Source of the DNA: Candidatus Hydrogenedentota bacterium
Lineage (GTDB): Bacteria > Hydrogenedentota > Hydrogenedentia > Hydrogenedentales > JAJRTN01
DNA length: 39,484 nt
NCBI GenBank assembly: GCA_024278275.1
Contig: JAJRTN010000126.1
Span: 1 to 39,484 of the forward strand
Direction of reading: 5' to 3'
How positions within the stretch are numbered: the first letter of the stretch is position 1; every line of letters starts with the position of its first letter. The position numbers were made by a program, and so were the translations under genes. The notes beneath the pieces are model-generated. The model was not told the origin of the DNA. It was given only the letters and a program-made list of their open reading frames with translations, and did no database searches. Below, piece by piece: positions 535-12,325 of this stretch.

Positions 535-1542
535 TCAGGTTTCACGGATATTCATGGAAAGGCACGATGCCGGTCCGCCTTCACTGTCCCCGCCGGGCGC
601 GTCCACACGGTACTTGCCCAGGCCAAAGGCACTGGCTTTGCCGAGATGGAGCTGTTCGCCCCAGAGAAGGTAGGGAAGCAGCTCCGGGGCGGGGCAGGTG
701 TAGGTGGCGCTTCCGGTGAAGCCGCCGAGTTGCATGCGCACCTGCTGGCGGCTGGAGTAGCGGCTCCAGTCCTGCCAGGCCACATGGGATGCCCGGGTCT
801 CGGTGGCGCGGGCGGCTTCGAGCAGGGGATGCACATCGTGGTCGGGTTCGCCGTCGCAGAAGAAGTAGCCGAGGGCCCCGAGGCGGCGCAGGAGCGCGGG
901 AAAGAGGTTGCCCAAGGCCGGCTCCTCGCAGAAGTGTCCTTTCACCTTCAGCCGCATGGGCGTCTCGAAGGTAATGCGAAGGTCCCGGTCCTCAAGCGCC
1001 TTCGCACGATCGGCCACGCCGGAGGAGTCGATGGTCGGAGCCTCCCCTTCGAGACGCTCGGAAGCATGGTCATAGACCGTGCGTTCACGCCCGTCCTCCA
1101 TGGCCGTGAGGGATAGTAGCGATGCCTTCGCGCGGTCGCGCCCGAGGCCCGCGCCGGCCATTTCCTCGAAAGCGTAGATGAACTGGGGCAGGTATTCATT
1201 GGCTTTGCCCACGATACAAAGCCCCACATCGAGGGCTTCCCCGGCTTCATACCGGGTTTTCAGGTCCGCGGGCGGCTCTATGACGAAGGGGTGCGGCGCG
1301 TAGGGGTAGCGCCGCATCATCGCGGTTCTCTCCGGCACGGGGGTTTCGAAGCATACACTGTAGGCGCAACGGTGCCGCAGCAGGCAGGCGGGACAGTTCT
1401 TTCGCGGCAGGGCGCAAGCGACCTTCTTGAAGGCGAAGCCCAGGGCGCCGCGGAAGGTCGCGCCCTTGTAGGCCGGCAGCAACATGGCTTCTTCGGTGCG
1501 GAAGTGGACGGTATAGCGCCGGGCGTAAAGTTTGTCCAGCAT
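535..1542 (-). CDS. cas6: CRISPR pre-crRNA endoribonuclease Cas6
   Basis: This 335-residue RAMP-fold endoribonuclease would cut the long array transcript within each repeat to give crRNAs carrying an 8-nt repeat-derived 5' handle. The diagnostic C-terminal glycine-rich RAMP loop is visible near residues 295-310 (LHLGKASAFGLGKYRV). The N-terminal half has a cysteine cluster at about residues 50-65 (CPACLLRHRC, then C), typical of the PF10040-type Cas6 subgroup. The gene starts 3 bp after the stop of the CARF-HEPN gene, so the two are probably co-transcribed and translationally coupled. It is the last gene of the minus-strand cas1-cas2-csm6-cas6 group, which lies downstream of the array. Length is slightly above that of classical Cas6 (about 250-300 residues), as expected for this subgroup. 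The catalytic residues cannot be assigned confidently by eye. Confidence 0.9.
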   Translation of the reverse strand: MLDKLYARRYTVHFRTEEAMLLPAYKGATFRGALGFAFKKVACALPRKNCPACLLRHRCAYSVCFETPVPERTAMMRRYPYAPHPFVIEPPADLKTRYEAGEALDVGLCIVGKANEYLPQFIYAFEEMAGAGLGRDRAKASLLSLTAMEDGRERTVYDHASERLEGEAPTIDSSGVADRAKALEDRDLRITFETPMRLKVKGHFCEEPALGNLFPALLRRLGALGYFFCDGEPDHDVHPLLEAARATETRASHVAWQDWSRYSSRQQVRMQLGGFTGSATYTCPAPELLPYLLWGEQLHLGKASAFGLGKYRVDAPGGDSEGGPASCLSMNIRET

Positions 1543-1545
1543 GGC

Positions 1546-2913
1546 CTAACGCCCCGTCCCGGCCGCCTGGCGAATGGCCTGGACGTAGGGTTGATAGATG
1601 TTCTCCCCCGCGGTCACCCCAAAGCAATCCAGGAGCGTACGCAGCGTTTCCAGCATGCCCTCCTCGTCTTTCTCCAAGGCATCCAGGATATCCTGCCTGT
1701 TCAGTCCCTGGAACCCGTGGGCGATGATGGAACGATTGCGCAGCTTGCGGGCACGGCCGAACACCGGCATCGTCTCCAGGAACAGGCGAAAACGCACCCG
1801 CCGGTCCGGGGCCAGGCCGTTCTCCTCCTGCTCCACGAGAAATTGAAGCGTCTTCTCCATGACGGGCGTGCTGGCTCTCGGGGCGAGATCGGCCTTTTGC
1901 AGGAAGCCGATCAAGCCCGGTACGGATTCCGCCCACTTCTTGAAGGCATTGTCAGACTTCACCGTGCCGTCGAAGGTGAGATCCGACACTTCGCCGAGGG
2001 CCGTTTGCAACCCCGACTCCATGAGGCGCCACACGCGCCCGAGAAAATCACAGCACTCGTTCCGTTCCCATTTCACCACCGCGTTCCAGTAGAGGTCGCG
2101 CAGGGCGGCGCTGCGGTCCCCCAGCGCGAGCAGGCCCGCTTCTTCCAGCCAGCCATCGGGCACGACAGCCTCCCCGGTACGCGCCAGCTCCGTGAGAATC
2201 CGGTGATGGGCGGCAAAGTCGAAATTGAGCCGGGCGGCGGCCGCCGCCGCGATATGCTGAGCGGTCTCAGGATGACCCCTGTTCGCCGCCACGGCGCTAA
2301 AATCATAGCGTTCCAGCAGCCGCTCCAGTCCCTCGCGGCGGTACGAATCCAACACCTGCGCCCCCACGGCCAGCGGCGTGGCCACCGTGTTCCCCTGCCC
2401 CACCACCAGGGCGCGGCACTTTTCGCGGAAGTGCCCAATGGCCGCCAGCAGGAGGGCGGTGATGCAGGCGGGCGTGCCGCCCGCGCAGAGCACGTAGACC
2501 ACGTCCGCCCGGGCAGTCTTTCGGGTGACCACCTTCCTTTGGAAAAAGCTGAGCATCGCGTCATAGCGGAAGGGTTCCTGGTCGATCATTACGACTTGCG
2601 GAGTGTTGCCCAGTTCTTCCCGGAGCATCCGCGCCAGCACCCTGGCGCACGAGACCGTGTCCCCCGCGCGGAATCGTTCATTCGCCTGGTCCGTGGCCAC
2701 CAGCAGCACCTTCGACACCTTTCGCCCCTGCTCCAGTTCAACCTGGCGCAACGCGGCGCTCAGCATGGGCATGCTCAGCCGGGCCTTGCAGGCATCGTAT
2801 TCCGCGTCGATGCGTTCCCCCTCGGCCCGAAGCCTTTTCGAGTCCAGCGGCGCGCCGTTTTCCTGGAGGTCACGTTGCCCCACATTGGCGATAAGACAGA
2901 TCGTTGTTTCCAC
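1546..2913 (-). CDS. csm6: CARF-HEPN ancillary ribonuclease, Csm6/Csx1-like
   Basis: The 455-residue protein has an N-terminal Rossmann-like CARF domain (about residues 1-190). It contains the loop-strand VLLVATDQ and a second conserved loop at LCAGGTPACITALL, matching the GGTP signature of Csm6-type CARF sensors of cyclic oligoadenylate. The C-terminal helical region ends in a HEPN nuclease motif, R394-x4-H399 (RNRSIIAHG). Such proteins are non-specific RNases activated by the cyclic oligoadenylate made by Cas10 after target-RNA binding. The start is GTG at 2913, preceded by GGAG with 7-nt spacing. It overlaps nothing upstream (139 bp to cas2) and leads directly into cas6. The exact subfamily (Csm6 or another CARF-HEPN group) is not settled, but the CARF and HEPN calls are solid. 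Confidence 0.85.
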   Translation of the reverse strand: METTICLIANVGQRDLQENGAPLDSKRLRAEGERIDAEYDACKARLSMPMLSAALRQVELEQGRKVSKVLLVATDQANERFRAGDTVSCARVLARMLREELGNTPQVVMIDQEPFRYDAMLSFFQRKVVTRKTARADVVYVLCAGGTPACITALLLAAIGHFREKCRALVVGQGNTVATPLAVGAQVLDSYRREGLERLLERYDFSAVAANRGHPETAQHIAAAAAARLNFDFAAHHRILTELARTGEAVVPDGWLEEAGLLALGDRSAALRDLYWNAVVKWERNECCDFLGRVWRLMESGLQTALGEVSDLTFDGTVKSDNAFKKWAESVPGLIGFLQKADLAPRASTPVMEKTLQFLVEQEENGLAPDRRVRFRLFLETMPVFGRARKLRNRSIIAHGFQGLNRQDILDALEKDEEGMLETLRTLLDCFGVTAGENIYQPYVQAIRQAAGTGR

Positions 2914-3052: not shown

Positions 3053-3379
3053 TTACAATACCATCACCTCGGGATCCATGTCGGGTTGGGCCGGGCCGCC
3101 GCCCTGCCGGTCGATGGTCCACGACGCCGCGAAGTCCGCCGCGCAAATGGGGAAGATCTGGATGAAGAGCCGCTGTTTCCGCTGTTCCTCCTTCTCCCGC
3201 TCCCCATGTTCCCGCACGATTCTTTCGAGAGTGCGCCGAAGCGCGTCCCGCTGTTCCGGGCTCAAATCCCCCAGGAAAGCGCTGAACTGCGCGCGGATCA
3301 TGCCCGCGTCCCGGCAGCTTCGTTCCGCCAGGAGCCGAAGCCGGTCGTCGCCGATGTCATAGGCCACAAGGGTCTGCAC
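3053..3379 (-). CDS. cas2: CRISPR adaptation protein Cas2
   Basis: This 108-residue ferredoxin-fold protein dimerises between two Cas1 dimers to form the spacer integrase. The N-terminal strand LVAYDIGDDRLR carries the conserved aspartate after the first beta-strand, and RAQFSAFLGDLS matches the family's R-x-Q-x-S-x-F segment. The start is GTG at 3379, preceded by a GAGGTGA Shine-Dalgarno element. It begins 9 bp after the cas1 stop, so the two are one transcriptional and translational unit. The length is normal for the family, with a slightly extended C-terminus. The 139 bp between its stop and the csm6-like start shows no gene. Confidence 0.92.
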   Translation of the reverse strand: MQTLVAYDIGDDRLRLLAERSCRDAGMIRAQFSAFLGDLSPEQRDALRRTLERIVREHGEREKEEQRKQRLFIQIFPICAADFAASWTIDRQGGGPAQPDMDPEVMVL

Positions 3380-3388
3380 GGGCTCACC

Positions 3389-4399
3389 TCACCACGCCGC
3401 CACGTAAGGCCGGTGGGCCTGCGCGTTGAGCAACACCGCGGCTATTTCCCGTGCCTCCGATTTAATAAGGTCCACGAGCTTCGTCTCCCTCCCTTCGTAT
3501 CGCATCCGCTGATTCAGTCGCTTCAACACCCGCGTCGCCAGTTTTTTTCGACTCGCCCCGTCCAGGTGGCCCTCTTCGTCAAACGCGGGAAGCCATCCCT
3601 TCGAGAAAGACGCCACCATCACGCGATCCACCGCCATCTGGCGGAACTCCTCGATAAAATCGAATACCAGCGTCGGCTTGTTGTCCCGGTAGGCGTGCAG
3701 GAAACCCGCGTAGGGATCCAGCCCCACCACCATCAGTACGCTCCAGATGCGGGAATAGAGAATACCATAACCGTAGTTCAGGCACGCGTTGAAGGGATCC
3801 TTCGCCCCCCGGCGCTTACGCTTTTCAAAGTGCGCCGCGGCGGGCAACACCGCACGGATGCCCGACCAGTAGGCCCGTGCCGCCCGCGCCTCGCGGTTCA
3901 TCAGGGAAGTGCGGAGTTCCGACAGCGATCTCCCCGGCAGGGCCAGCATCTCCTCCAGGAGCCGGTCCACTTCCACGGACGCCGCCCGAAGCTGCTCGAA
4001 GGTTTTCGGAGCGCTTTTCTTGCGTGATTTGCCGAAGTAGCGCAGGTTGGCCGCCTGGTTGCGGAGTTTCCCTTCAAGAAAGGCCTTTGCCAGCGCCACG
4101 CCGCGCCCGTCTTCAACCGCCAGCAATTGCTGGCGGCGCAATGCCGCCCGACCAAAGGATTCCGGCGGAATCACCTTCGCGTAAGGCTCGCCCCGGTAGT
4201 TCAGGAAGGTGATCACCACCCCGTGCCGTGCCGCAAGCGACAGGGCGTCCGACGATACCGTGATGCCCTTGCCCGTCACCAGGATGTTTGTCACCTCCGA
4301 CGCCGGAACCTCCACCGCCGCCTTTCCCTTACGACGAATCACCAATCGCCGGCTGCGCTTGCCCAGCGACGTGCCAAATTCCGTTAACACCAGTTCCAT
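3389..4399 (-). CDS. cas1: CRISPR integrase Cas1
   Basis: This 336-residue integrase inserts new spacers at the leader end of the array. The catalytic elements are visible: Glu in NREARAARAYW, His in LDPYAGFLH and Asp in TLVFDFIEEFR. The N-terminus MELVLTEFGTSLGKRSRRLV is typical of Cas1. I place the start at 4399 because GGGGGAG precedes that ATG by 6 nt and family similarity begins there. The same frame stays open upstream to 4537, which would add 46 residues in which KKGWISYNGFEL occurs twice. That extension is the in-frame translation of a 37-bp direct duplication at the array edge and is unlikely to be real protein. The gene lies 119 bp from the last repeat, on the strand on which the array is transcribed. 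Confidence 0.93.
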   Translation of the reverse strand: MELVLTEFGTSLGKRSRRLVIRRKGKAAVEVPASEVTNILVTGKGITVSSDALSLAARHGVVITFLNYRGEPYAKVIPPESFGRAALRRQQLLAVEDGRGVALAKAFLEGKLRNQAANLRYFGKSRKKSAPKTFEQLRAASVEVDRLLEEMLALPGRSLSELRTSLMNREARAARAYWSGIRAVLPAAAHFEKRKRRGAKDPFNACLNYGYGILYSRIWSVLMVVGLDPYAGFLHAYRDNKPTLVFDFIEEFRQMAVDRVMVASFSKGWLPAFDEEGHLDGASRKKLATRVLKRLNQRMRYEGRETKLVDLIKSEAREIAAVLLNAQAHRPYVAAW

Positions 4400-4426
4400 C
4401 GACCACTCCCCCGTGGGTGACCTCGT

Positions 4427-4535
4427 CAGTTCAAAACCATTGTAGCTTATCCAACCCTTCTTCTTGAAGAGCATGGAGAAGGGAACGGGACCCGAGAGCA
4501 GTTCAAAACCATTGTAGCTTATCCAACCCTTCTTC
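4427..4535. repeat. 37-bp perfect direct duplication flanking a 35-bp insert, beside cas1
   Basis: Bases 4427-4463 and 4499-4535 are identical over exactly 37 bp. They start CAGTTCAAAACC and end AACCCTTCTTC, and the bases on both outer sides differ. The intervening 4464-4498 is 35 bp. The CRISPR repeat here is 37 bp and the spacers are mostly 35-41 bp, so this unit has array-like dimensions but is out of register. The right copy consists of 20 bp of cas1-side flank plus the first 17 bp of the terminal degenerate repeat. The 72-bp period preserves the reading frame, which is why cas1 appears to have an N-terminal extension. Confidence 0.9.
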
Positions 4536-6142
4536 ATCAGGTCATGGGGGGCAATGTCTCTAGACGATGCGGCACTCTTTGTGCTGCGTGAGTTTCGATC
4601 CCTTCTTCATCAGGTCATGGGGGGCAATAGCACTTCAGCGCAAAATCCTTATTGTCGCTGACTCCAGTGTTTCGATCCCTTCTTCATCAGATGGCAATAA
4701 TAGAAAAATAACCGGCGATTTACGTGAATGTCGCTGACTCCAGTGTTTCGATCCCTTCTTCATCAGGTCATGGGGGGCAATCGGACTACGTGTGCATTGA
4801 AGCGTATGCGCCCGGGGCGGTTTCGATCCCTTCTTCATCAGGTCATGGGGGGTAATTGCCAGATTAACCCAAATGCCCGCCGTAGGGTATCCTTGTTTCG
4901 ATCCCTTCTTCATCAGGTCATGGGGGGTAATAGGGTACGAAGGGAGGCTGAGCATCGATGGCAACAACGTGGTTTCGATCCCTTCTTCATCAGGTCATGG
5001 GGGGTAATTAACCTAACAAACAAGGAGAAGAAAATGGACAGCAAAACGCTACTCGTTTCGATCCCTTCTTCATCAGGTCATGGGGGGTAATATTTAAAAA
5101 GTTATCCGATTTTTCGGACTGCGATTGGTTTCGATCCCTTCTTCATCAGGTCATGGGGGGTAATGCGTGCATGGGTCAGTATTTCGCGCCGTGTGACCAG
5201 TTTCGATCCCTTCTTCATCAGGTCATGGGGGGTAATAACGCCGGAGTGGGAGCTCCATACGGACGGTGTAGGTGTTTCGATCCCTTCTTCATCAGGTCAT
5301 GGGGGGTAATTGGTACATCAACACCCACCTACCTTACATCGGCCTCGCCAAGTTTCGATCCCTTCTTCATCAGGTCATGGGGGGTAATGACCTGAGAACA
5401 TGAAAGACGTGTGTGTTTGTCAGGGCGTTTCGATCCCTTCTTCATCAGGTCATGGGGGGTAATCTCCATCGCGGACGGTGGCGAACTGGATTTGTGGCGC
5501 TTGTTTCGATCCCTTCTTCATCAGGTCATGGGGGGTAATAAACTAGGAGGATCTGGGAATATGAAAAACGTGTGTGTGTTTCGATCCCTTCTTCATCAGG
5601 TCATGGGGGGTAATGCCGGCACAGAGAGGGGATCACGATGACCAGTACCTGTTTCGATCCCTTCTTCATCAGGTCATGGGGGGTAATAGTTCGAAACGTT
5701 AAACGATTTTTCAGACTGTGAGTGTGTTTCGATCCCTTCTTCATCAGGTCATGGGGGGTAATGAAAAATGGTGCCGCGAATGTGTTGATGATGATGGAGG
5801 TTTCGATCCCTTCTTCATCAGGTCATGGGGGGTAATAATTACGGAACTGGTCTATGCGGAGCGGGTCAACGACCTCGTTTCGATCCCTTCTTCATCAGGT
5901 CATGGGGGGTAATCGTGCGATAATTGTGGGGAAACGGTGCTGATTGCCGTTTCGATCCCTTCTTCATCAGGTCATGGGGGGTAATAGGGTGGTACGCGCC
6001 GACGCAGAGGGGGAGTCATGGTAACCAGTGTTTCGATCCCTTCTTCATCAGGTCATGGGGGGTAATAGACGTCGGAAAGAATGAACGCCGTCACCTGCTG
6101 AAATTGTTTCGATCCCTTCTTCATCAGGTCATGGGGGGTAAT
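4519..6142 (-). CRISPR. Type III-A CRISPR array, 22 repeats and 21 spacers, transcribed leftward
   Basis: The 37-bp repeat reads on the plus strand GTTTCGATCC...GGGGGGTAAT. On the transcribed minus strand it ends GGGATCGAAAC, resembling the ATTGAAAC-type 5' handle of type III crRNAs. Repeat starts are 4519 (degenerate), 4592, 4669 (30 bp, contracted), 4745, 4820, 4895, 4972, 5055, 5128, 5200, 5274, 5352, 5427, 5503, 5578, 5651, 5726, 5800, 5877, 5949, 6030 and 6106. Spacers are 35-46 bp. The four full or degenerate repeats nearest cas1, and the contracted one, end in CAAT. All others end in TAAT. The degeneracy at the cas1 side and the handle orientation place the leader at the right (6143 onward) and the oldest units at the left. 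The array lies between csm5 and cas1, all on the minus strand. Confidence 0.97.
4653..4766. repeat. 38-bp direct duplication straddling a spacer-repeat junction
   Basis: Bases 4653-4690 and 4729-4766 are identical over 38 bp and differ at both outer edges. Each copy is 16 bp of spacer (TGTCGCTGACTCCAGT) plus the first 22 bp of a repeat. The intervening 4691-4728 is 38 bp. This explains why the repeat at 4669 is contracted and why the next spacer (4699-4744) is 46 bp and ends like its neighbour. If one copy plus the insert is removed, a normal repeat, 40-bp spacer, repeat order is restored. Confidence 0.88.
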
Positions 6143-6314
6143 ACGGGCTTTTCAAGGACTTACGCAGGTTTTGCCGCCGTGAGGCCCCAAGTTGTTTCAT
6201 CCTAAGATCCTCCGTGGTATGGGTTTATCGATGTCATTCGCTCCTTTTCGAATCTGGGGGTGGCAGGGGGCCGGTCCAGGCGCTCAAACCGTGTTTTTTA
6301 CCCGGTGTTTTCAT
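6129..6314 (-). other. Three abutting tiny ORFs within the leader (26, 11 and 23 codons)
   Basis: On the minus strand, 6314-6234 encodes 26 residues beginning MKTPGKKHGL, with AAGGA 6 nt upstream of its ATG. Its TGA overlaps the next ATG (ATGA), which opens an 11-residue frame (6237-6202) preceded by AAGGAG. That frame stops in TAG just before an ATG at 6200 with GGAGG 8 nt upstream. The third frame runs 23 codons and stops inside the first CRISPR repeat. Such spacing resembles translational coupling, but the peptides have no recognisable similarity and chance is quite possible. Recorded as an observation, not as genes. Confidence 0.2.
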
Positions 6315-6364
6315 GGCAAGTCCTTATAGAGGCATTTGCGAAATTGAGGTTTTTGATTCGTGCC
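6143..6364 (-). promoter_or_regulatory. CRISPR leader region
   Basis: This AT-richer stretch lies immediately upstream (minus sense) of the first repeat and should hold the array promoter and the integration-guiding sequence. Read on the minus strand it ends CTGCGTAAGTCCTTGAAAAG shortly before the repeat. A TATAAG element lies at about 6325-6331, but no good -35 box is spaced from it, so the promoter is not resolved. The leader call rests on the repeat polarity and on the decayed repeats being at the opposite end. Confidence 0.65.
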
Positions 6365-6405
6365 ATCCTGTATGTTGCGGCTAGGATAGCCGCAACATAC
6401 AGGAT
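6365..6405. repeat. Perfect 19-bp-arm hairpin between csm5 and the leader
   Basis: ATCCTGTATGTTGCGGCTA (6365-6383) is the exact reverse complement of 6387-6405, around the loop GGA. It lies 99 bp beyond the csm5 stop in the direction of transcription and just outside the leader, so it could separate the csm operon from the array. It lacks a T-run on either strand. Its central core GCGGCTAGGATAGCCGC resembles the GCGGCTGGAAGCCGC hairpin at 16084-16102, which points to a dispersed palindromic element. The flanking stretch 6406-6504 shows no gene. Confidence 0.85.
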
Positions 6406-6504
6406 CATGTGTAGGTTTCACTGAAAATCTTCTTTTCACAAATGGCACTTATAACATACCCTGTTGCGTTTTTTCGAAGGTGGTGGCCGGTTGGCGTGTG
6501 TTTT

Positions 6505-7761
6505 TCAATCTTCGAAAAGCAGGTCCACCCTGAGCCATCCCATGGGCTGCCAGCCCTTCGGCCCGCGCGCCCATTTTCGGGTTTTGGGGAAGAGGTCCAC
6601 GCCGGGGGCGCCCATGCGTTTGTTGGGCCGTCCGTCCCTGCCGCGACCGAAGGCATCGCGCATGGCCTTCACGTCTTGGGGTTGCAGCATGGGCCCGATG
6701 GTCTTGGTATGCCAGCCGGTGCCGTAGCCCAGGGGCATGCAGGCGGCGTCTTTCGCGGCGAGTTCCCGAAAGAAGCGGGCGTGGGCCTCCTGCTGCTGGT
6801 CGTGGTAGAAATCGGCTTCGATGCGTGCCAGGGCCCGGCCGTTCCGGCGCAGGGCGGCCGCGAGGGCCTTGGGGTCGCGGAGGAGGGCCACGGTTTTTCC
6901 GCCGAGGGCGCGTGCGAGGTCCGTGTCGTGTTCGAGGCGCCACGTGTCGAGGTAGCAGGGCAGTTCGACGGCGGTCTCTCCGGGCATGAGGCTTTCGAGG
7001 AGGATCTTCATGCCGCGTTTCTCCTCGAAGCCCCGGCGGGTGACGTTCATGACGCGCACGGGGGTGACGGCGAAGTGTTCGGGGCCGAGGGGGGCGGAGT
7101 CGCGGAGTACGAAGGCTTTCATGCCGTCCTCGATGACCTTGCCGAAGAGTCGTTGGTTCAGGTCTATGCCGGCCCATTGTGGTGGCCGACGGCTTCGGAC
7201 GGCCTGTTGGATTTCCCGTCCCAGGTGGAGGTGTTCGGCGAGGGCACAGGCGAGGGCGGTGCGAAGGGCGCCCTTCACGGAGGAGCCGGGGAGGAAGAAT
7301 CGGTCGAAGGGATCCTTGACGAAGGCGGCCACTTCGCCGGTGCGGTCCTCGCGGGGGGCCGGGGCCTGTTGCGGCGGCGTGGGATGCCGGCGTTCCGCCT
7401 GGCGCATGAGCCTGGCCATCCTTGGGTCAATCCTGGGGCCGGTGCGCTGTCCTCGTCCACCGCCGCCTGGCCGTTGCGGTCTCCGCTGGGGGGCCTGCCG
7501 CCGTGGTGTGGCGGGCGCCTCGCCATGGAAGGGGAGGTCGTATCGGAGGAAGTCGTCGTCCAGCTTGAGGCCCGAAGCCACGGCGTCGAGGGCGAATTGG
7601 GGGTTGTCGCGGTTTGCCTCGAAAAAGGCGCGCACGTCTTTGAGCTTGAAACGGCCCTGGTCGACGGCGTAGTCGATGGGCATGTACTTTTCCCCGGAGC
7701 CGATGTGGACGGGGGTGAGTGGCGTGAGCCTGAGCACGCCTTGAACGCGATCATGGGTCAT
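6505..7761 (-). CDS. csm5: Type III-A effector subunit Csm5 (RAMP)
   Basis: This 418-residue RAMP protein caps the head end of the Csm complex and is associated with crRNA 3'-end maturation. The N-terminal strand LTPLTPVHIGSGE is the family signature, and FFLPGSSVKGALRTAL is the conserved RAMP G-S-S-x-K-G segment at about residue 155. Between them (about residues 85-140) is an Arg/Pro/Gly/Gln-rich, probably disordered insertion absent from typical Csm5. The frame is open upstream to 8151, but I start at 7761 because AAGGAGG precedes this ATG by 6 nt. It overlaps the csm4 end by 11 bp. The C-terminus (LGYGTGWHTKTIGPML) retains the conserved glycine-rich stretch. Confidence 0.92.
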   Translation of the reverse strand: MTHDRVQGVLRLTPLTPVHIGSGEKYMPIDYAVDQGRFKLKDVRAFFEANRDNPQFALDAVASGLKLDDDFLRYDLPFHGEAPATPRRQAPQRRPQRPGGGGRGQRTGPRIDPRMARLMRQAERRHPTPPQQAPAPREDRTGEVAAFVKDPFDRFFLPGSSVKGALRTALACALAEHLHLGREIQQAVRSRRPPQWAGIDLNQRLFGKVIEDGMKAFVLRDSAPLGPEHFAVTPVRVMNVTRRGFEEKRGMKILLESLMPGETAVELPCYLDTWRLEHDTDLARALGGKTVALLRDPKALAAALRRNGRALARIEADFYHDQQQEAHARFFRELAAKDAACMPLGYGTGWHTKTIGPMLQPQDVKAMRDAFGRGRDGRPNKRMGAPGVDLFPKTRKWARGPKGWQPMGWLRVDLLFED

Positions 7762-8764
7762 GGGGCGCCTCCTTGGGAAGATGACAGGGCAGGGCAAAGG
7801 CCAGGCCGGAACGCCACACGGGGTGGGCGGTGAAAGCGGCGGGCCGCGCGTCGCGCATGTCGCCGTGGCGTGGGGCCACCGCGGGGAAGGCGCTGCCCTC
7901 CACGCACATGCGAAGGCTGCGCTTGCGCTGGTCGCTGCCGCCGGGGCCGTGTATCCAGCCGCCGCGCAGGGCGCAGTCGTAGGCGGCGGGGGCGTCCAGC
8001 ACGCCCCGGTCCACCTCGTCGCGCGTGGGGAGATAGAGACTGAGGGAAAAGAAGTCCGGGGCGTCCGCCGTACCGAAGAGGGCCGTCCGGTCCGTCCATT
8101 CCTCGATGCCGAGGAGGTCGAAGCGGCCATAGCCCACGGAGCGTTCACCACCGAGGCCCTGCTCGCCCAGTTCCTGCACGAGGCGCTGGAATGACGGGAG
8201 GTGGCCTTTTTCCAGTTCGACGAAGAACCAGGCGCCGCAGCCCTTGCCGGTATTGACGCGCAGCCCCCGCCGGTCGAAGGGGGTGGTGGCGCCGCCCGCC
8301 CGGTCGATGACCACGGCGGTGGAGAACTCCTCCACCACCAGGGCGTCGGGCGGTGCGGGACGGCCTTCCAATTCCGACGCGAGCACGGCGGCCCCGCCCG
8401 GCAGCACCCGGATCTCCGCCTCGGGCACCGCCGCGCCCCGGAGCCAGGTGGCCAGGAGTTTCTCGGAGAGGAGGGAGACGGACTTCCACCGCTTCCGGCC
8501 TTTCACGTCCCCCTCGGGCTGTTGTCCCGGGCGGTGGAAAAAGGGCTTGGGGTAGAGGAAAAGATCACGCCAGAAGGGGAAGAGGGAACTGAGGCGCAGT
8601 TCGGGGGCCCGGTCGAGGAGGGGCGACCCGGTGAGGGCGGCCACGGCGACCAGGGCGCCGTGGAGGGTGTCGGAGTGGACGAGGGCCCCGGATTTTCGCG
8701 CGCGGCCGTGGGGCGCCACGTAAAAGGGGGCCAAGGGTTCCAGGCGTACACGGTAGATGCTCAT
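7751..8764 (-). CDS. csm4: Type III-A effector subunit Csm4 (RAMP)
   Basis: This 337-residue Cas5-like RAMP binds the 5' handle of the crRNA and contacts Cas10 at the base of the complex. The start YRVRLEPLAPFYV followed by SDTLHGALVAVAALTG matches the Csm4 N-terminus, and a glycine-rich RAMP motif (GLGGERSVGYGRFDL) lies at about residues 205-220. Its ATG overlaps the csm3 stop as ATGA, and its end overlaps csm5, showing a tightly coupled operon. Length is normal for the family. No damage is visible. Confidence 0.92.
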   Translation of the reverse strand: MSIYRVRLEPLAPFYVAPHGRARKSGALVHSDTLHGALVAVAALTGSPLLDRAPELRLSSLFPFWRDLFLYPKPFFHRPGQQPEGDVKGRKRWKSVSLLSEKLLATWLRGAAVPEAEIRVLPGGAAVLASELEGRPAPPDALVVEEFSTAVVIDRAGGATTPFDRRGLRVNTGKGCGAWFFVELEKGHLPSFQRLVQELGEQGLGGERSVGYGRFDLLGIEEWTDRTALFGTADAPDFFSLSLYLPTRDEVDRGVLDAPAAYDCALRGGWIHGPGGSDQRKRSLRMCVEGSAFPAVAPRHGDMRDARPAAFTAHPVWRSGLAFALPCHLPKEAPHDP

Positions 8765-9537
8765 GCCGCCGAACCCCCGGCCCGGCCGGCCAACTGCTTC
8801 CTGAGCGCCCCGACCTGTGGCGCGGCGTCGAGGTCGCGCCCGTTGAAGGAGGCGACGGTAACGGTGCAGTTGACGAAGCGGACCTGGCCGTAGCCCCGCG
8901 AGCCCTGCCCGCCGAGGTAGTCGTGCTCCAGCATTTCCATGGCTTCGGCCACGTACTTCAGCCAGTCCAGGTCGCCCTCGCGGTAGAGGTTGAAGACCAT
9001 CTCGAAATCAAAGCGCGCGCCCGCGGGCACCCGCTCCATCTGGCGCGGCGTAGCCGCCGAGGTGATGCGGTCGATGACGACCTCCGTTTTCACCTGGCTC
9101 ATGGGCATGTCGGTGTAGAGACTGCGCTCCAGGGTCTTCGCGGTCTCTTCCGCCATCATGGCGTCGCGCACCAGGAGCCGCGTGGGCAGGCTTTCGCCGC
9201 CCAGGCGGCGGATGTCTTCGGGGGTTACGCCAAAGAGGTGGCAGATGAAGCATTCTTCGTAATCCTGAAGGTCATCGCAGACGTGGATGCGGGAGTTGCC
9301 AACACGTTTGAGCTTTTTCCCGCGATATATGCGTTACAACAGGCAGCGCATTTTGCCTTTGAGGGAAGAACCGGGAACATAGGGGCGACCGTCAAGGCCG
9401 TTGCGGATGATCGTGTTGTCCGCGCCGCCGATGGCCAGGCCGATCTCGTTCCCGCCGATGTGCATTCCCGTGACCGTCTCGATTTCGCCGCTGATCTTAA
9501 TGCGGCCCAAGTGGGTGATGGTGCCTTGTTCACTCAT
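8761..9537 (-). pseudogene. csm3: Csm3 backbone RNase, open frame interrupted by one in-frame TAA
   Basis: Csm3 forms the multi-copy backbone of the Csm filament and cleaves target RNA every 6 nt. The N-terminal part (9537-9337) encodes TGMHIGGNEIGLAIGGADN. Asp40 here aligns with the catalytic Asp32 of Staphylococcus epidermidis Csm3. It continues to PGSSLKGKMRCLL and then meets TAA at 9334-9336 (codon 68). Reading on in the same frame gives RIYRGKKLKRVG and an uninterrupted Csm3 C-terminal part to 8761, including GGQGSRGYGQVRF. So there is one nonsense codon and no frameshift, and the remainder shows no decay. A GAA-to-TAA or CAA-to-TAA substitution would explain it. It may be a real lesion, a sequencing error or readthrough. 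The internal ATG at 9171 could not restore the catalytic N-terminus. The gene follows csm2 by 15 bp with an AAGGAAG Shine-Dalgarno. Confidence 0.88.
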
Positions 9538-9552
9538 GATTTCTTCCTTTTT

Positions 9553-9918
9553 CTATTTGCCGCCCGCGGCGCGGTGGTATGCGAGAATGGCCTCGAATCC
9601 CTGGCAGAAACGGCGGAAGCGCGCCCTTCGCTGCTTATCATCGTCAGACTTGTCCACGGCGTCAATGGCCGACTGGAGTTCATCGCCCAAATCGCGAAGG
9701 TTTCTGCTTCGGGCGACGGCATAGGCGATCCGTGGCTTGAGCAGCAGCAGGGAGGGCATGTCCAGGTCCCCCGCCATCTCCATTTTCTTGATGCTGCCGA
9801 AGATGCCTCTTATTTGGCTGGTGCTGACCTGTCGGCTGATTTCCCGGCCAAAGCCTTCGGCCCATTTAATGAACTCGTTGTCGATGCCGTTCCGGACGGC
9901 AACCGCGAACTGTCCCAT
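9553..9918 (-). CDS. csm2: Type III-A small subunit Csm2
   Basis: This 121-residue all-helical protein corresponds to the Cas11-type small subunit that lines the inner face of the Csm filament alongside the crRNA-target duplex. It has the expected size and position (between cas10 and csm3). The pattern IRGIFGSIKKMEMAG followed by KPRIAYAVARSRN matches the Csm2 core (IR-x-I, then L-x-P-K/R-x-A-Y-A-x-R). The ATG at 9918 lies one base beyond the cas10 stop, so the two are coupled. Charged residues such as KSDDDKQRRARF near the C-terminus suit RNA contact. Confidence 0.9.
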   Translation of the reverse strand: MGQFAVAVRNGIDNEFIKWAEGFGREISRQVSTSQIRGIFGSIKKMEMAGDLDMPSLLLLKPRIAYAVARSRNLRDLGDELQSAIDAVDKSDDDKQRRARFRRFCQGFEAILAYHRAAGGK

Positions 9919-9919
9919 G

Positions 9920-12325
9920 TCAATGATCCTCCTTCAGTAGCAGTTCGGTCCACCGCAAGGGCAGCCCGAGCCGGTCCTCTATGGCCTCGTTGGCGTCCAG
10001 GATACGCGCCTGGATTGCCGCGATATCATTTTCCGCGTCCTTGTGGCGCTTGGCGAAATCGCGCAGGCCGTAGGTGAGCATCCAGCGCCACCGTTGCCAC
10101 CGGGCCTTCTGCTTGAGATCCTCCAGCGACAGGCCGGGCCGGGTCTTCGCCACAAAAAGTTGCTCGCGCCGGTATACCTCCCACACATCGTAGAGCCGCC
10201 GCAGGAAGGCCTTCGGCAGGGGGCCTTCGGGCTTGAGCAGAGCAAGCAGGAGGCGGTGGAAGTCGCGGAAGCGGTCCATCTCCTCGAAGCCCACGGGCAC
10301 GCCGAAGAGGGTGATGGCGTTTTTTTCGCGGCCCTTGCGAACGTATTGCTTGGCGGCCTCCTCGTATTGATGGGCCAGGTCGGCCGCGTGGCGCAGGGGC
10401 AGATGGTCGTCCACCATCGCCACGCCCCCCGAAAAGGTGAAGTTCGGGTTGAGGCCGCTGAAGTCGTCGAAACGTTCCCGCAGGTCGAGGGCGAAGTCGA
10501 TGACCCGGTTCCACGCGCCCACCACGAAGAGGTCGTCGCCGCCGGCATAAAGCACGCCCACTTCGCCGTGGTACTCCGTTTCGACCACGTGGTCCAGGTA
10601 GCCCTCGAAGAAATCCTTCAACAGGGCGCTGAGGGTGGCCACGCGGCTGAGGGAGGCGCGCTCGCCGAGGCCCGTGGCGAAGAGGGCGCCCAGGTTGTCC
10701 ACGTCGGCCCGGAACACGCCCAGCTTATTCGCGCCGGTGGATTCCTTCGCCAGTTCCTCGAAGGTTTTGATCCCGCCCTCGTTGCCCAGGGCCCAACTCC
10801 GCGCCGCGAAACGGTGTCCGTAGGAAGGGGCGGTGGCGGTACGCGGAAGCTCGTGTAGTGCTTCGGGGTCGAAATCGCCCAGTTGCATGAGCGCCGTGGG
10901 CGAAAAGTCCAGGTTCCTGAGTTCCCTTTCGAGGCTCACCTCGAAACCGAGTTCCGCGAAGAAACGGTTGAGGCCGGTCGGGCGGTCTGTAGGGGCGCGC
11001 CATGCGAGCCACTTCGCGGTGGCGATGCGTTGGCCGAGGTCCACGTAGTGGTTGCACGGGTCGCAGAGTTCCCCGTCGGCGCCGTTGCCCCCCTCGACCT
11101 CCCGGCCGCACACGGGGCACTTGGCCGCCTGGCCGCCCGTGTCCTGGAAGCCGAAGACGGCGTTGTAGTCCTCGCGGGCGATGTGGGTGAGTTTGCGTTG
11201 CTTCGCCCTGGCGGCCGCTTTGGCCGCTTCGGCCCATTGGGTGGAAAAGCGCTCCGGCCTGAAATCCGCCGCGCCCACTTCGATGCCGCCCACCTGCACG
11301 GTCAGGTCCGCGCCCACGTGGCGGTGGAGCAGACGGGAGAGGCGGTGGGCGGTCTGGTCCACGTTGGCCCCGAGGGGAAGCAGGGCGTAGAAGCGGCCGC
11401 CGCCGTTATAGATGATGCATGTCTCGGGTACGCCCGCCTCGCGGCAGACCTCGGCGGCGCAGGCATCGGCGATAAGCTGCAGGGCGAAGGAGCGGCCCTT
11501 GAGGGTTTTGGCCGCTTTGCTGGACACGATGGTGTAGAGGAAGTTCTGGATGCCCGAAAGGTCGCCGCAGACGAGGGTACAGATGGGTTCCTGGAGCACC
11601 GGCAAATCGGGGTTGCGCATCGTAATCGCGGTCCGCAGCTCCGAGGCCCTCGCTTCGCTCATGTCGTCGGCGAGAAAGCAGGCCGCCAGCGCGGCCACGG
11701 TCCGGCAGTGATCGAAGAGGCTGATGTCGGGGACGTAGGCACCGACCCGCGTGGGGGTCGCGGCAGGCACGCGGGAGGTGTAGCGGCGCATGAGCGCCAG
11801 CCAGGTGCGATGGGGAAGGGGACGGCCCGGAAAGGCCGCCACGGCCGCCACGAAGTCTTTCCACAGGGCCGCGTAGTCCGCCTCGCCGCACCGGGCACCC
11901 AGCTCCGGGAAAAAATGATCAAAATCGCCGTGCATGGCCAAGGGGAAGTAGGTGTCTCGTTGTGCGCCTTCAGCCTTGTCGGGGGCTATTCGACCGAGGA
12001 GATTGAGCAGGCGCGCGGCCTGGGGCTTGTCGGTGGCCTGCGCGGCATCCTCCATGCGTTCGCCGGAAGAAAGCCAATCCGCCAGGGAGAGGAGATAGGC
12101 CTCGCGGCTGTCGGGGTGGTGGTGCATGCGCGCCCAACTCGTCGCCTCAGCGTCCTCAAGGTGGCGCTCCAGAAACTGCCCCGTCCACAGCGTATGGGCA
12201 TAGGTGTTGGCGAAGTGTTCCGCCTCATCGTGCCCTAAGGGCCGTGGCTCCCCCGTGCGCTGCCAGAACTTCCCGATATCGTGGAGCAACCCCGCCGTTG
12301 CGATGCGAGCGACTCGAGACTCCAT
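9920..12325 (-). CDS. csm1: Csm1/Cas10, large subunit with HD nuclease and cyclic-oligoadenylate synthase motifs
   Basis: This 801-residue protein is the signature subunit of type III systems. The N-terminal HD domain is visible at residues 13-20 (LLHDIGKF) and would provide ssDNase activity. A zinc-finger region follows at about residues 400-425 (CPVCG...CDPC). The second Palm domain carries the intact GGDD at residues 595-598 (YAGGDDLFVVG), which makes cyclic oligoadenylate from ATP when target RNA is bound and so should activate the CARF-HEPN protein encoded at 1546-2913. The first-palm region has GDLSGIQNFLY. The start ATG has GGAGG 7 nt upstream. It is the first gene of the csm operon. 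Length is normal and no lesion is seen. Confidence 0.96.
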   Translation of the reverse strand: MESRVARIATAGLLHDIGKFWQRTGEPRPLGHDEAEHFANTYAHTLWTGQFLERHLEDAEATSWARMHHHPDSREAYLLSLADWLSSGERMEDAAQATDKPQAARLLNLLGRIAPDKAEGAQRDTYFPLAMHGDFDHFFPELGARCGEADYAALWKDFVAAVAAFPGRPLPHRTWLALMRRYTSRVPAATPTRVGAYVPDISLFDHCRTVAALAACFLADDMSEARASELRTAITMRNPDLPVLQEPICTLVCGDLSGIQNFLYTIVSSKAAKTLKGRSFALQLIADACAAEVCREAGVPETCIIYNGGGRFYALLPLGANVDQTAHRLSRLLHRHVGADLTVQVGGIEVGAADFRPERFSTQWAEAAKAAARAKQRKLTHIAREDYNAVFGFQDTGGQAAKCPVCGREVEGGNGADGELCDPCNHYVDLGQRIATAKWLAWRAPTDRPTGLNRFFAELGFEVSLERELRNLDFSPTALMQLGDFDPEALHELPRTATAPSYGHRFAARSWALGNEGGIKTFEELAKESTGANKLGVFRADVDNLGALFATGLGERASLSRVATLSALLKDFFEGYLDHVVETEYHGEVGVLYAGGDDLFVVGAWNRVIDFALDLRERFDDFSGLNPNFTFSGGVAMVDDHLPLRHAADLAHQYEEAAKQYVRKGREKNAITLFGVPVGFEEMDRFRDFHRLLLALLKPEGPLPKAFLRRLYDVWEVYRREQLFVAKTRPGLSLEDLKQKARWQRWRWMLTYGLRDFAKRHKDAENDIAAIQARILDANEAIEDRLGLPLRWTELLLKEDH

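Follow-up and report, generated by a model that had tools for sequence, protein, structure and literature searches.

The CRISPR-Cas locus

The window, the whole stretch of 39,484 nt that was analyzed, comes from a Candidatus Hydrogenedentota genome of 5.35 Mb in 200 contigs and contains a CRISPR array flanked on both sides by cas genes. Read on the minus strand, the order is cas10/csm1, csm2, csm3, csm4, csm5, the array, cas1, cas2, a gene for a Csx1/Csm6-like CARF-HEPN protein and cas6 (Table 1). The NCBIfam models TIGR02578, TIGR02582, TIGR01903 and TIGR01899 scored above cut-off at the locus and Csm2 was recognized by PADLOC; judged by these predicted proteins, Cas10/Csm1 together with Csm2-Csm5, the locus is a type III-A (Csm) CRISPR-Cas system. 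The CARF-HEPN protein may be a CARF effector of the type activated by cyclic oligoadenylates. Cas1, at 382 aa, comprises Cas1 domains only and carries no reverse transcriptase (RT) fusion. The csm3 frame is interrupted by an in-frame TAA, beyond which the remaining frame reads as a good Csm3; this stop is either a genuine nonsense mutation or an assembly error, and because of it the present function of the effector is doubtful. The same genome carries two further arrays, namely, a type I-G-like array of 33 spacers with a long Cas4/Cas1-like ORF (L010, G000:C142, 5130-7557) and a type II-like array of 4 spacers, which lies at the end of a contig next to cas1 and a 1097-aa ORF (L012, G000:C156, 10122-10426).

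Table 1. Genes, array elements and discussed spacers of the type III-A locus (positions in the window)
Feature	Position	Strand	Remarks
cas6	535..1542	-	
Csx1/Csm6-like CARF-HEPN protein	1546..2913	-	PADLOC Csx1 / CARF_HEPN match; putative effector
cas2	3053..3379	-	
cas1	3389..4537	-	no RT domain; translation probably begins further downstream than the first ATG of the ORF
Type III-A CRISPR array	4519..6142	-	37-nt repeats (crRNA sense ATTACCCCCCATGACCTGATGAAGAAGGGATCGAAAC), 21 spacers
Degenerate terminal repeat	4519..4555	-	distal end, 5 mismatches
Internally deleted repeat copy	~4669..4705	-	both flanking spacers share their final 16 nt (TGTCGCTGACTCCAGT)
Spacer 6	4932..4971	+	GGAGG 10 nt ahead of ATG; ambiguous
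Spacer 7	5009..5054	+	AAGGAGAAGAAAATG; start-site-like in plus sense
Spacer 8	5092..5127	+	FKKLSDFSDCD in plus sense; internal coding site, not a start; homologous to spacer 16
Spacer 12	5389..5426	+	ATGAAAGACGTGTGTGTTTGTCAGGGC; no clear SD; homologous to spacer 14
Spacer 14	5540..5577	+	AGGAGGATCTGGGAATATGAAAAACGTGTGTGT; motif AGGAGGATCTGGGAATATG; start-site-like; homologous to spacer 12
Spacer 15	5615..5650	+	GAGAGGGGATCACGATGACCAGT; motif GAGAGGGGATCACGATG; start-site-like; homologous to spacer 20
Spacer 16	5688-5725	+	FETLNDFSDCEC; homologous to spacer 8
Spacer 20	5986..6029	+	GAGGGGGAGTCATGGTAACCAGT; motif GAGGGGGAGTCATG; start-site-like; homologous to spacer 15
Probable leader	6143..6500	-	upstream side in crRNA sense; segments resemble the region upstream of the G057 array (L098)
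csm5	6505..8151	-	
csm4	7751..8764	-	
csm3	8761..9537	-	in-frame TAA at ~9334-9336 (-), after 67 codons
csm2	9553..9918	-	PADLOC Csm2
cas10/csm1	9920..12325	-	with HD domain

Array structure and orientation

On the plus strand the repeat unit is GTTTCGATCCCTTCTTCATCAGGTCATGGGGGGTAAT (37 nt), and the 21 spacers, 35-46 nt long, lie within 4556-6105. One repeat copy is internally deleted; together with the shared 16-nt ends of the spacers beside it (4629-4744), this suggests that recombination or slippage has occurred. Distally, 4427-4463 and 4499-4535 form an exact 37-nt direct duplication, 72 nt apart, which overlaps the cas1 ORF at its 5' end, such that the peptide KKGWISYNGFEL occurs twice; the duplication (4427-4535) runs into the degenerate last repeat and resembles either a repeat-spacer unit in decay or a local duplication.

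The original prediction took the array to be transcribed on the minus strand, and this polarity is supported by three features of the sequence. In minus-strand sense, the repeat has the terminal sequence ATCGAAAC, which has the shape of the 8-nt 5' tag of type III crRNAs, and related arrays near cas10 have the repeat ends ATTGAAAC, ATTAAGAC and ATAGAAAC. The degenerate repeat at the low-coordinate end is distal in this reading. The region upstream of 6142 aligns with that upstream of the G057 array with a score of 64, the best of 50 shuffles reaching 56. These features point to minus-strand transcription from a probable leader on the csm5 side, in which (6143-6500) a consensus scan found no sigma-70-like promoter. 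Directly before the first repeat (6143-6230, minus strand), the leader in crRNA sense includes GGAGGATCTTAGGATGAAACAACTTGGGG..., an RBS-like site, together with a short open frame that runs into the repeat.

Start-site-like spacers

Five spacers had been named as carrying a Shine-Dalgarno (SD) motif followed by ATG in plus sense, and four of them (spacers 7, 14, 15 and 20) are convincing, with an SD-like run suitably spaced ahead of the ATG. The fifth, spacer 6 at 4932-4971, is ambiguous; it may be internal coding sequence instead of a start site, because a second plus frame is open throughout (GYEGRLSIDGNNV). The further remark that other spacers translate openly carries little weight, since on either strand an open frame is present in nearly every stretch of this length (20/21 and 20/21 in this array).

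The start-site-like spacers are not independent of each other. Three spacer pairs show clear homology, namely, 12/14 (ATGAAARACGTGTGTGT), 15/20 (CAGAG-GGGG-ATG-ACCAGT) and 8/16 (GATTTTTCNGACTGYGA), with alignment scores of 34-40 compared with a 95% point of 25.5 for shuffled arrays. Two of the three pairs are start sites, so spacers 7, 12, 14, 15 and 20 represent about three sites. Pairs of distinct but homologous spacers that derive from one site shared by related genes also occur in the type III arrays L037, L038, L046, L197, L210 and L222, some at apparent starts and others within genes.

Start-site counts against chance

Spacers were scored for AGGA, GGAG or GAGG located 3-11 nt before ATG, and the null was drawn from sense-strand blocks of six annotated phages, a small and mixed set, in which spacer-length sense fragments gave an SD-ATG in 5.0-5.3% of cases in sense and 2.0% in antisense. 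In this array the rule picked 5 of the 21 spacers in mRNA sense and 1 in antisense, the frame of the latter not being kept open. Compared with the phage-sense expectation, 5/21 has a P of 0.003-0.004 and the four convincing spacers alone a P of 0.02, values that are nominal because the feature was picked after the sequence had been read. Within the array, the sense-to-antisense ratio of 5:1 gives a sign-test P of 0.11. The array has the lowest P among 46 type III arrays scored alike, which corresponds to a Bonferroni-corrected value of ~0.15, and another array, L037, is extreme to a similar degree (3/7 spacers start-site-like). The local excess of start sites is thus small, resting on about three independent sites, and is not robust to multiple testing or to the non-independence of the spacers.

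Strand bias in other type III arrays

The comparison set consisted of arrays near cas10 from related loci, the window's own order and, for two other type III carriers, the Chloroflexota and the order of Rhabdobacter. Before counting, the orientation of three of these arrays was changed manually and some dozen doubtful ones were dropped, leaving 45 further type III arrays with 651 spacers, oriented by the repeat tag; the orientation rests on repeat ends, type I systems may share some of the arrays, and the counts ignore relatedness. Among these spacers, 32 (4.9%) carried an SD-ATG in sense and 11 (1.7%) in antisense (sign P 0.001), and the sense rate shows no excess over the 5.3% expected for phage sense sequence (P 0.68). 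The pooled arrays have a bias toward mRNA sense without a preference for start sites, as would result from sampling sense sequence. The clustering at ribosome-binding sites that had been proposed from this array is therefore not established, the pooled type III rate being that of sense sampling. An SD-free start test, which uses an upstream in-frame stop and an open frame after ATG and was applied where SD motifs are weak, likewise gave no excess in Bacteroidota arrays (25/322 versus an expected 11%).

A codon model, which calls the strand of 77% of true sense fragments correctly, assigned 398 of the 651 spacers to the sense strand (P 1.5e-8); in the genome's own type I-G array, it found no bias (18/33). 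For the present array the model called 14/21 spacers sense; the strand signal here (14-15 of 21) has the same direction and is not significant, and the array alone is too small to decide. The proposal that these crRNAs are antisense to mRNA consequently holds for the pooled arrays (32:11 and 398/651), whereas this array by itself only leans the same way. That type III crRNAs are antisense to mRNA is already known (Vink 2021; Artamonova 2020), and type III spacers have been found to match the coding strand ~65% of the time (PMC8482600).

Protospacer searches

With the array as query, INPHARED phages and PLSDB plasmids yielded chance-level matches only, and pattern scans of IMG/VR were empty except for the short DFSDC pattern, whose 7 matches lie in unrelated contexts and are, by our estimate, about the chance number. 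Against 68 genomes of the order, spacer 18 matches, over 5849-5876, 26/28 nt at G006:C182:7368-7397, inside an MFS-transporter-like gene and in the same reading frame; this match is either a matter of chance or indicates a non-phage target. With no protospacer found, the strand and start position of the spacers were read from the spacer sequence alone, and we infer that the targets are phage mRNAs.

Origin of the start-site-like spacers

We favor, with a probability of roughly 0.78, the explanation that this is an ordinary RT-less type III-A locus in which transcript-pairing spacers are kept by selection and start sites are not preferred; the start-site fraction would have been raised here by small numbers and because two gene-start sites were sampled more than once in related invaders. 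Cas1-Cas2 would probably take spacers from invader DNA on either strand, and spacers whose crRNA pairs with mRNA would be kept, as only these would trigger the Cas10-Csm complex and, in turn, the cyclic-oligoadenylate-activated Csx1/Csm6 ribonuclease. The minus-strand crRNAs would then be antisense to the transcripts of past invaders, any position of an mRNA would serve, and start sites would appear at about the general rate of sense sampling. For Thermus, acquisition without an RT has been reported to draw on both strands, the strand bias arising when selection retains the spacers that target transcripts (PMC7515739). For the present locus too, we infer that the strand bias is made by selection and not by acquisition.

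The nominally high start-site count of the array (P 0.003-0.004) and the similar 3/7 of L037 speak against selection without start-site preference, the in-frame stop of csm3 and the negative protospacer searches also count against the favored reading, and these two arrays, together with the double sampling of homologous start sites, are what an acquisition bias would predict, in which the III-A Cas1-Cas2 prefers DNA near gene starts, e.g., coding-strand ssDNA or hairpins exposed by transcription. One review reports such an enrichment for the RT-free type III-A system of S. thermophilus, whose new spacers are concentrated near start codons, ~10-50 bp downstream, on the encoding strand (PMC9048733). 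However, the spacers in this array straddle the SD and the ATG instead of lying downstream, the excess comes down to some three independent sites, and the 651 spacers of the 45 other arrays show no enrichment over sense sampling; we regard an acquisition bias as unlikely. Also unlikely is the idea that type III-A arrays take up spacers again and again at the same homologous sites, in many cases gene starts, as related invaders follow one another. If this is true, such sites would be hot spots determined by transcription initiation or by their effectiveness, and no reverse transcriptase would be needed.

Functional selection for start sites, whereby crRNA-Csm bound at accessible ribosome-binding regions would recognize mRNA better or block translation, agrees with the finding that the array's start-site spacers are all in mRNA sense, the lone antisense SD-ATG lacking an open frame, but such an effect, if general, is expected in the pooled arrays and is absent there, which makes it very improbable. 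RT-mediated derivation of the spacers from RNA, favoring the 5' ends of mRNAs, was rejected as scarcely credible, because Cas1 lacks an RT domain and the neighborhood of the locus contains no RT. The genome's single RT, which could have spoken for this route, is on another contig (C119) and is presumably of the group II intron kind, by our own reading of its sequence and not by tool assignment.

Comparison with known systems

The locus shares with the RT-less type III-A systems of S. thermophilus and S. epidermidis and with Thermus type III systems the cas10-csm2-5 genes, cas6, a putative CARF-HEPN effector and RT-free cas1-cas2, and 35-46-nt spacers and a probable mRNA-sense spacer bias are also common to both. 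It differs from RT-less type III-A systems in the in-frame stop of csm3 and in the nominally high start-site fraction of this one array. With the RT-Cas1 type III systems of Marinomonas and Fusicatenibacter, which take spacers from RNA, it has in common a type III effector and spacers that would be able to pair with mRNA, whereas here no RT is fused to or located beside cas1.

The evidence mainly reproduces the known mRNA-sense bias. A start-site preference in RT-less type III systems, if true, would tell whether capture follows transcription or whether selection favors translation-initiation regions, and for such claims the counts provide a baseline of ~5% sense and 2% antisense SD-ATG per 38-nt spacer.

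Within the same order, the array of genome G057 (L098) has a related repeat (CTCTTAACCCCCTAGACCTGATGAAGAAGGGATAGAAAC), a Cas1 that is 49% identical and a partly similar upstream region. Its spacers are different, and it lies downstream of cas1, whereas the present array lies upstream; one of its five spacers is AGGAGGCAAAGAACATGAAACC in mRNA sense.
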